A DNA stretch of 64,000 nt. Source: Ancylomarina euxina (lineage in GTDB: Bacteria; Bacteroidota; Bacteroidia; Bacteroidales; Marinifilaceae). Numbering within the stretch: the first letter of the stretch is position 1; each line of letters opens with the position of its first letter. Made by a program: the position numbers and the translations under genes. The notes beneath the pieces are model-generated. The model worked only from the letters and a program-made list of their open reading frames with translations. It searched no databases and was not told the origin of the DNA. Shown in pieces: positions 7,807-9,991 of this stretch. The stretch is taken from contig NZ_QQWG01000007.1 of assembly GCF_003863355.1 (NCBI RefSeq), positions 124,001 through 188,000 on the forward strand, given 5' to 3'.

Positions 7807-7892
7807 TCTTAGATTCGCTCCATTTCAACTAAATTTAATGACGGTTTGCAAAACAATTCGGACAAAGAAGTATTTTATATGTAAATATTTCT

Positions 7893-7900
7893 TAGATTTG
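7893..7900 (+). promoter_or_regulatory. candidate -7 element for the cys leader
   Basis: TAGATTTG fits the Bacteroidota -7 consensus TAnnTTTG and would start transcription about 13-15 nt before the leader ATG at 7920. The -33 region at the expected distance is poor. Confidence 0.45.
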
Positions 7901-7919: not shown

Positions 7920-8102
7920 ATGAGAGAGTATAATAGTCATATCGCATCATTTTCTTCAACTCTAATTTCTTTTGAGTTGAATATGCATGCATCTACATTT
8001 TTGACTTCTTTCAAATCAAACACATCTTTTTCAACCAGTAACACGAATTGTTGTTGTTGTTGTTGTTGTTGTTGCTGCTGTTGTTTTACCTCTTGTTGTT
8101 AG
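7920..8102 (+). CDS. poly-cysteine leader peptide of the cysE-cysK operon
   Basis: This 60-codon ORF starts with ATG and encodes a Ser/Thr-rich segment (11 Ser in the first 43 residues), then twelve consecutive Cys (residues 44-55), Phe-Thr-Ser, two more Cys and a TAG stop. Fourteen of the 60 codons are Cys. It lies about 100 bp upstream of cysE, on the same strand, with a terminator-like hairpin between. A run of codons for the pathway end product, in front of the pathway genes, is the classic form of a ribosome-stalling attenuator. Poly-Cys leaders are known as cysteine-responsive attenuators in mycobacteria; I know of no described Bacteroidota case. An internal ATG (residue 22) could be an alternative start. 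The peptide itself is unlikely to have another function. Confidence 0.75.
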   Translation: MREYNSHIASFSSTLISFELNMHASTFLTSFKSNTSFSTSNTNCCCCCCCCCCCCFTSCC

Positions 8103-8131
8103 TTCTATAGTACTGTATTCTTTCTATAGAC
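8102..8131 (+). promoter_or_regulatory. first leader hairpin, at the leader stop codon
   Basis: CTATAG at 8105-8110 pairs with CTATAG at 8124-8129. GT (8102-8103) and AC (8130-8131) extend the stem around one bulged base. The hairpin begins exactly at the leader stop codon, so a ribosome finishing the leader would melt it. It may act as a pause or competing hairpin. Confidence 0.4.
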
Positions 8132-8135
8132 TCTC

Positions 8136-8177
8136 AATTTAAATGGGCAGGTTTCCTGCACCCCAAATTTTCCTTTT
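8136..8177 (+). terminator. attenuator hairpin between the leader and cysE
   Basis: GGGCAGG (8145-8151) and CCTGCACCC (8155-8163) form a 7-bp GC-rich stem with a TTT loop and one bulged A. AATTT/AAATT can extend it. A T-rich tract (8168-8177, interrupted by CC) follows. In a genome with about 35% GC this stands out. It lies upstream of the gene it would control, as an attenuator should. The imperfect T tract lowers certainty. Confidence 0.6.
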
Positions 8178-8204: not shown

Positions 8205-9044
8205 ATGAATTATCTAGCAAAAGTTATGGAAGAACTTCAAGCTTCACGCGAGATCAACGAACTAGATCTTCCAAGTAGAGATTTAACTCAAACCTTTGTT
8301 GAAGAAGCGATGAACACCTTATTCCCAATCAGTGCTCGACGTTCAAAAAGTCACTGCGCTCAAGAGGCTCTTTTAATACAATTAGAAACGCATCTAAAAC
8401 TTCTTCTTCTCCCAGTAAAAGAAGAACTTAATAAGCCAATTGATGATTTATCAAAACAGTTTATGCTTAACCTACCCAAAGTATACAAGGCACTTTTATT
8501 AGATGCACAAGCTATTCAAGATTTCGATCCAGCAGCCAGAAATCTCGGAGAGGTCATCGTGTCCTATCCTGGCTTTTTCGCCATTATGGTTTATCGACTT
8601 AGTCATGAACTCTATCTAGCCAATATTCCCATTATTCCTAGACTAATGAGTGAATATGCACATTCTAAAACTGGTATTGACATTCATCCAGGAGCTCGAA
8701 TTGGAGAATCTTTTTTTATTGATCATGGTACAGGTGTCGTTATAGGTGAAACAGCCATTATAAAACATCATGTAAAAATCTATCAAGGTGTAACTCTTGG
8801 AGCATTGCAAGTGAAAAAAAGTTTAGCTAAAAAGAAACGTCACCCAACAGTTGAAGATAACGTCATTATATATTCGAATGCAACAATCCTTGGAGGGGAA
8901 ACCATTATTGGTCGAAATAGTGTAATTGGTGGTAATGTATGGTTAACTTCAAGTGTCGATTCCAATTCATTGGCTTATCACAGTCATAAAATTAAAGTCA
9001 GGTCAAGTATCAACGAGAACAACATCATTGATTTTCAAATATAG
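8205..9044 (+). CDS. cysE: serine O-acetyltransferase
   Basis: This 279-residue enzyme converts serine and acetyl-CoA to O-acetylserine. The N-terminal half is helical. The C-terminal part (about 155-265) is a left-handed beta-helix of hexapeptide repeats (IDIHPGARIGESFFIDHGTG, GVVIGETAIIKHHVKIYQGV). The His in FIDHGTG and the Asp in TGIDIHPGA match the catalytic pair of the family. It belongs to the longer, EpsC-like form. It forms an operon with cysK, 35 bp downstream, and both should be controlled by the poly-Cys leader. Confidence 0.92.
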   Translation: MNYLAKVMEELQASREINELDLPSRDLTQTFVEEAMNTLFPISARRSKSHCAQEALLIQLETHLKLLLLPVKEELNKPIDDLSKQFMLNLPKVYKALLLDAQAIQDFDPAARNLGEVIVSYPGFFAIMVYRLSHELYLANIPIIPRLMSEYAHSKTGIDIHPGARIGESFFIDHGTGVVIGETAIIKHHVKIYQGVTLGALQVKKSLAKKKRHPTVEDNVIIYSNATILGGETIIGRNSVIGGNVWLTSSVDSNSLAYHSHKIKVRSSINENNIIDFQI

Positions 9045-9079: not shown

Positions 9080-9991
9080 ATGAAATTAAATCATATTTTA
9101 GAAACTATTGGACAAACTCCAGTCGTAAGAATCAACAAAATTCTAGGTCAAAAGACAAAGGTTTGGATTAAATTAGAACGTAATAATCCTGGGGGTAGCA
9201 TTAAAGATAGAATTGCTCTATCGATGATTGAAAAAGCTGAAAAAGATGGCATTATTAAGAAAGGGACTACTATTATTGAACCTACATCTGGAAACACAGG
9301 AGTTGGCTTAGCAATGGTTGCCGCAGTCAAGGGATATAAATTGATTCTTGTCATGCCTGAATCAATGTCACTTGAACGTAGAAAATTAATGTCAGCTTAT
9401 GGAGCAGAGTTTGTATTAACACCACGTGAATTAGGAATGAAAGGTGCCATATCAAAAGCAGAGGAGCTCATAAAAACCGACGCAAACAGCTGGATGCCAT
9501 CTCAATTTGACAATGAGGCCAATGTGGAAATACATAGACAAACAACTGCTCAAGAGATCATTGCTGATTTTCCGGATGGTATTGACTATCTGGTTACTGG
9601 AGTAGGAACAGGCGGACATATCACAGGAGTAGGTGAAATTCTTAAAGCTAAATTCCCAAACTTAAAAGTTTTCGCTGTGGAGCCCGAAGCTTCTCCTGTT
9701 ATTAGTGGTGGAGCACCTGGTCCACATCCTCTTCAAGGAATTGGTGCTGGATTTATACCTGCAAACCTTAATGAATCTGTTCTGGATGGCGTTATAAAAG
9801 TAAGTCAAGAAGAGGCTTTCTCAATGGTTAGATCTTTGGCTAGAGAGGAAGGAATCTTAGCGGGAATATCAACAGGGGCATCTCTTGCTGCCGTTGCTAA
9901 GAAAAAGGATGAATTTGGTCCAAAGGCAATAATTCTAACGTTTAATTACGATACCGGGGAACGTTATCTTTCTACGGAAGGTTTATTCTAA
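9080..9991 (+). CDS. cysK: cysteine synthase A (O-acetylserine sulfhydrylase)
   Basis: This 303-residue PLP enzyme makes cysteine from O-acetylserine and sulfide. The PLP lysine is K42 in GGSIKDR. The substrate loop is TSGNTG (69-74), and the phosphate-binding loop [11 protein letters not shown] occurs near 176. The C-terminal half carries GISTGAS. Length and motifs are normal for CysK. It is the second gene of the cys operon; a strong hairpin terminator follows within 20 bp. Confidence 0.93.

Follow-up and report, generated by a model that had tools for sequence, protein, structure and literature searches.

On the forward strand of the 64,000-nucleotide stretch of Ancylomarina euxina DNA analyzed here (the window), a leader ORF at 7920..8102 precedes the gene for a cysE/epsC-type serine O-acetyltransferase (8205..9044) and cysK, encoding cysteine synthase A (9080..9991). 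Translation bears out the first-pass annotation, which described a 60-codon ORF with 12 Cys codons in a row and two more before the stop. The 60-residue peptide ends NTN-C12-FTSCC, its N-terminal part drifts, the 12 consecutive Cys codons occupy 8049..8084, and the additional pair at 8094..8099 adjoins the TAG stop. Its further claim that the next genes make cysteine agrees with the NCBIfam assignments: CysK scores above cut-off, and CysE scores above the EpsC cut-off and below the TIGR01172 cysE cut-off. NCBIfam names also place modA and modC, of a molybdate transporter, 5′ of the leader with one ORF in between. In Rfam, the window yields only three tRNAs at gathering score and no riboswitch or T-box match, and both matches within the leader fall far below gathering score, so no known riboswitch or RNA family was found there.

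A promoter-like box of the TAnnTTTG type, TAGATTTG, lies at 7893..7900 on the forward strand, 19 nt 5′ of the leader ATG, and it has the form of the −7 promoter element of Bacteroidota, whose consensus is TAnnTTTG. Its position places the mRNA 5′ end about a dozen nt 5′ of the ATG and suggests a short 5′ UTR, predicted from that spacing. Farther 5′ of the −7 box, at about 7855-7880, a GAC..GTC half-palindrome (e.g. TTCGGACTTAAGAGTCTTG) can be seen by eye. It occupies the same place in L009-L014, with several genera represented, and may be a putative operator for some regulator.

The ORF and its Cys run, on whose presence in relatives the first-pass annotation had staked its reading, are kept in the host family. 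This cysE was detected in 23 of 56 genomes searched (E 1e-60 or better), and an equivalent leader is present in 21 of the 23. The upstream regions of 22 were read, leaving out G073 (a partial CysE match containing a stop); G015 is without such a leader, and its CysE is just 61% identical. All 21 leaders, two of which (L006 and L007) are identical, are ATG-initiated ORFs of 50-60 codons with Cys codons at the end and a stop 92-104 nt 5′ of cysE. The TAnnTTTG box is found 17-19 nt 5′ of the ATG in 20 of the 21 (L317 has TAAGTTTA), and a CysK match follows cysE in all 14 host-family loci tested. Runs of at least three Cys codons occur in 13 of 13 distinct host-family upstream regions, versus 0.02 in shuffles. 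Asn runs are likewise in excess (7 of 13, versus 0.22), owing to an NNNQ stretch that is the partner of the Cys codons in the pairing described below. Alignment of 13 leaders leaves only M1 and three Cys columns invariant, with H7, N41, and four further Cys at 90%. The leader ORF is thus real and beyond chance. The run counts 6 or 7 Cys in the four sister species and 4-7, sometimes interrupted, in other host-family genera; the 12-Cys run of the window is an expansion.

Part of that length is a (TTG)n tandem repeat, and a (TGT)18 tract in a 145-codon frame elsewhere in the genome (L100, G000:C18:8695-8748) indicates that such repeats expand in the host organism. Two patterns returned 11 further Cys-run places in the own genome, all of which were read, and none is a plausible leader. 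Nine of these are frames of just 4-22 codons, including L096, which has an ATG and no long same-strand ORF within the following 2 kb. The cysH and cysD regions of the own genome were scanned as well, without yielding a Cys leader.

Outside the host family, 80 named and 69 unnamed cysE loci were scanned, 148 of the 149 being long enough for a 350-nt test. The unnamed set came from a search of 247 genomes, 124 of them matching; 69 of its 126 places outside the own genome were read, the other 57 being mainly of family f42. A short ATG ORF with at least three Cys in a row was found 5′ of 13 of the 148 cysE genes, versus 0.33 expected from 60 dinucleotide shuffles (maximum 2) and none of 148 on the reverse strand. 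Runs of at least four Cys occur in 7 of 148 upstream regions versus 0.00 in shuffles. Leu, the next commonest residue run, appears 11 times versus 7.5 in shuffles, and no residue other than Cys shows a comparable run excess 5′ of these 148 genes. The leaders thus far exceed chance expectation, a chance origin being ruled out by shuffles and reverse-strand controls, and their excess is Cys-specific. They are also a minority feature, no Cys-run ORF being present 5′ of 135 of the 148. Looser rules had noisier controls: at 500 nt, runs of at least three Cys numbered 6 of 80 forward versus 2 of 80 reverse, and a Cys-density rule at 450 nt gave 11 of 69 versus 4 of 69. Candidates dropped as weak were L141, L146, L156, L159, L163, L165, L171, L176, L177, L178, L180, L186, L248, L261, and the second ORFs of L137 and L203. 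Separately, cysE upstream frames in L194, L195, and L196 (L122 is the L195 frame) end in TCIC or STCIC. These frames, kept outside the Cys-run counts, may represent another Cys leader, one in which Cys codons alternate with others.

The first-pass annotation had proposed looking for such ORFs before cysE and sulfate-assimilation genes alike, and they were found at both. For the PAPS-reductase family, 118 genomes were searched, 59 matched, and 50 loci were fetched, giving 127 upstream regions. Five of these hold an ORF with at least three Cys in a row, versus 0.10 in shuffles and one on the reverse strand, and sulfur genes lie behind four of the five: cysH in G170 and G112, a sulfate-binding protein gene behind a seven-codon MYCCCCC ORF in G098, and a nitrite/sulfite-reductase-like gene in G178. 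The fifth gene (L312) is without an NCBIfam match and porin-like by eye; its ORF stays in the count of five and was, together with L263, dropped as a weak leader. Beyond 350 nt or under a looser rule, an ORF ending CMCCC lies 334 nt 5′ of cysH in G153, and a Cys leader precedes a 3-mercaptopyruvate-sulfurtransferase-like gene in G187. The sister species G002 and G003 have three serial ORFs, with ends CCCCCCC, CCCSC, and CCG, 5′ of a CBS/CysK-like gene detected in just 2 of 56 host-family genomes (E 1e-80). In G002 they occupy 529-600, 621-752, and 797-910 of locus L102; in G003 (L110) they lie on the reverse strand. By eye, the third serial ORF of both loci has a common end, KPYHLRISTTVCCG, over a short inverted repeat. 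In four genomes (G002, G003, G098, and G153), two sulfur loci each have a Cys leader of their own.

These leaders come in two builds. Among 22 further, self-selected leaders scanned for terminators (21 from other families plus L102, the first CBS-like one, with L295 and L296 left out), ten have a strong intrinsic terminator 22-41 nt 3′ of the stop and 12 do not. In the terminator leaders, the stretch of RNA that separates the Cys codons from the terminator is able to base-pair with the 5′ arm of the latter (z −3.65 to +0.20 in the ten, mean about −2, against mononucleotide shuffles), although L161 has no antiterminator pairing. The predicted anatomy of these ten is that of a classical attenuator. 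Terminator leaders average 21.5 codons versus 30 for the terminator-less ones (10 vs 11, p 0.03), and they often run on past the Cys codons, whereas the terminator-less leaders mostly end in Cys. The window belongs to the second build, in which the Cys run abuts the stop and no terminator follows: no intrinsic terminator lies between its leader and cysE, and the scan was negative in 20 of 21 host-family leaders, the window included, with a weak pass for L003. The suggestion that the ORF has the form of a Cys-responsive attenuator is partly supported: the Cys leader is conserved in 21 of 23 genomes and recurs before other sulfur genes, but no intrinsic terminator is present in the window. In a different family of the same order (G055), the cysE 5′ region of L021 combines MLKRIVKHMFCCCMASQTGLCFDLYD with a strong terminator, which shows the terminator build inside the host order. 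Flavobacterium suaedae (L162) has a compact Cys leader (MFLDQIYMACCKCC..) and an intrinsic terminator before cysE, with antiterminator pairing at z −2.48; as a named and cultured species, it offers a good experimental model.

Folding of the window leader predicts a hairpin, termed 1:2, between the pre-run region and the Cys codons (8032..8068, forward strand). When the 51-nt segment is folded in isolation, all 21 host-family leaders give a hairpin of this type as their minimum-energy structure. CAGCAA stands opposite UUGCUG in four of five species of the genus of the window, the window's own arm being CAGUAA, and AACAA-type arms stand opposite UUGUU in most other host-family leaders, suggesting that the choice between TGC and TGT tracks the pairing partner. 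Over 12 leaders compared with shuffles, pairing between the Cys codons and the preceding RNA has a mean z of −1.53 and the spacer also folds better (mean z −1.14), values whose combination overstates independence because the sequences are related. A consensus fold over the 12 contains just one pair with two-sided change, and the whole window leader folds slightly better than shuffles (z −1.35). Two more hairpins are predicted on the forward strand. Hairpin A (8095..8138, five genus members) covers the last Cys codon, the stop, and part of the spacer, and would be melted by a ribosome at the stop. Hairpin B, GGGCAG..CUGCACC (8145..8162), is predicted in the genus, with no U-tract after it.

A cysteine-sensing role of the leader is strongly indicated by its conservation. 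Because the leader is kept in relatives, and kept before cysteine genes, the ribosome very probably senses cysteine shortage through it. Were the ORF instead the gene of a functional Cys-rich small protein, its constant length of 50-60 codons in 21 host-family leaders would make sense; yet nonsynonymous codon changes exceed synonymous ones in all six informative leader pairs, so that the peptide itself is weakly constrained at most. The peptide has no NCBIfam match either, and Cys-richness is the sole feature that the leaders of other lineages have in common, which makes a small protein highly improbable. Still less credence can be given to the idea that the run is a functionless slippage tract of (TTG)n. 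The tandem repeat within the run and the other (TGT)n tracts of the genome are what such a tract would produce, but the comparison of relatives already contradicts it, since in 21 genomes the Cys codons ahead of cysE stay in frame despite TGT/TGC switches. Between L009 and L012, four of the seven codons of the Cys run differ, and every change is TGT/TGC. As an explanation of the whole, a cysteine-responsive leader ORF of the cysE-cysK operon is the likely one.

Under this cysteine-responsive reading, transcription would begin just 5′ of the leader ORF, as the logic of such leaders implies, and ribosomes translating it would stall on the terminal Cys run when Cys-tRNA(Cys) is scarce. By the same logic, stalling would raise cysE-cysK expression. 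Stalled ribosomes are described as working via terminators, start-site access, or Rho loading (PMC12121999), and for the window our best guess, a tentative one, is Rho-dependent termination. In the presence of cysteine, the ribosome would depart at the stop, leaving the C-rich, G-poor leader free for Rho, which would load and halt transcription before cysE. With cysteine short, ribosomes would queue on the 50-60 codon ORF behind the stalled one and together with it shield the RNA, and transcription would continue. A ribosome-shielded Rho gate would account both for the long ORF and for the run at its end. A rho gene is present in the genome, and C-over-G skew is positive in the pre-run region of all 21 host-family leaders and, in 20 of them, also 3′ of the stop. 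The terminator-less leaders are more C-rich than the terminator leaders in an exploratory, self-chosen comparison of related sequences (11 vs 10, p 0.005; L295, L296, and L300 left out). The window leader has a skew of 0.16 over its whole length, 0.28 pre-run, and 0.375 after the stop. Since 32 upstream regions of the window average 0.04 (sd 0.19), this leader is unexceptional among them, and Rho termination shielded by stalled ribosomes stays a proposal.

Two other read-outs were weighed against this Rho-type gate. The leader RNA might hide the cysE start until ribosome stalling on the Cys run exposes it, a translational mechanism that would suit an anatomy shared with the Actinobacterial leaders (PMC1262725), the mycobacterial ones being cited as translational. 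In L004 and L013 the post-stop RNA can indeed pair with early cysE codons, and spacer:start pairing reaches z −3.59 in L013 and z −1.58 in L008. Over 12 leaders, however, the mean z is −0.14 for run:start and −0.29 for spacer:start, and across 14 leaders accessibility of the cysE start shifts by at most 0.09 between stalled and at-stop folds. Sequestration of the start by run or spacer thus gives no overall folding signal, and the translational read-out appears unlikely. A classical attenuator with hairpin B as a non-canonical intrinsic terminator and hairpin A as its antiterminator is more doubtful still. In its favor, folding predicts both hairpins in the genus, the spacer of the 12 leaders noted above is more stably folded than shuffled sequence, and leaders with terminator and antiterminator occur in other Bacteroidota. 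Against this stand the scan, negative in all host-family leaders except for the weak L003, and the lack of overlap between A and B, which need not exclude each other.

Beyond the single operon, it is possible, if short of probable, that the leaders form a cysteine network without a transcription factor in several Bacteroidota lineages, in which a fixed Cys-codon sensor would be joined to an output swapped between a terminator and a Rho-type, queue-protected gate. Its independent leaders would, with the same reservation, include those of cysE-cysK, cysH, sulfate uptake, the CBS-like gene (three in series), and others. A recurring ribosome-based cysteine sensor, present in several lineages, serving two loci of some genomes, and joined to two outputs, is a directly testable system, and its two builds allow a natural comparison of attenuation with and without an intrinsic terminator.

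To our knowledge, how Bacteroidota regulate sulfur assimilation is poorly understood. Transcription attenuators of the trp/his type have a leader peptide with a run of end-product codons. The Cys leaders share such a run, and ten from other families or loci add a terminator, mostly with antiterminator pairing, in contrast to the window leader, which has no terminator. The polycysteine short ORFs of mycobacteria are reportedly leaderless and are said to act through RBS sequestration. They resemble the present leaders in using a Cys stretch as a ribosome-based cysteine sensor at several loci per genome, but a short 5′ UTR is predicted here, and the RBS sequestration reported for mycobacteria finds no folding support.

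Within the phylum, leader-peptide attenuation has been proposed for amino acid operons of Flavobacterium psychrophilum, a case that differs in that cysteine goes unmentioned in the accessible text (PMC9723704). Short ORFs in long 5′ UTRs are reported for B. thetaiotaomicron, again with cysteine unmentioned in the text available (PMC7366714). Bacteroidota are described as naturally without Shine-Dalgarno sequences (PMC6847099). According to the authors of a survey from 2010, leader peptides had to their knowledge been demonstrated in Proteobacteria and Actinobacteria only; the survey extended the list to Firmicutes (PMC2965389). A literature search covering few subscription papers found no report of a cysteine leader in Bacteroidota.

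The mycobacterial precedent named by the first-pass annotation is correct: mycobacterial polycysteine short ORFs are cited as cysteine-responsive (Canestrari 2020, via citing work, which calls the mycobacterial counterpart translational), and Cys-run leader ORFs were described in 2005 for cys operons of Mycobacterium and P. acnes and for cbs of B. longum (PMC1262725). The Actinobacterial leaders are presented there as lacking a conserved terminator, and Rho was proposed by the authors (PMC1262725). The suggestion of the first-pass annotation that this is a new sensing device for the phylum holds insofar as no Bacteroidota report was found; the kind of device is known from Actinobacteria, and the window leader is one of a wider set. 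The likeness extends to a short ORF, Cys codons near the stop, a position before cysteine genes, and the absence of a conserved terminator. The leaders described here differ in phylum, in promoter type, in the 50-60 codon length of the ORF, in the hairpin that recurs at the Cys codons, and in having a terminator-bearing sister build. Taken with the literature search, the Actinobacterial precedents point to a principle that is already known, here extended to a new phylum and realized in two builds.
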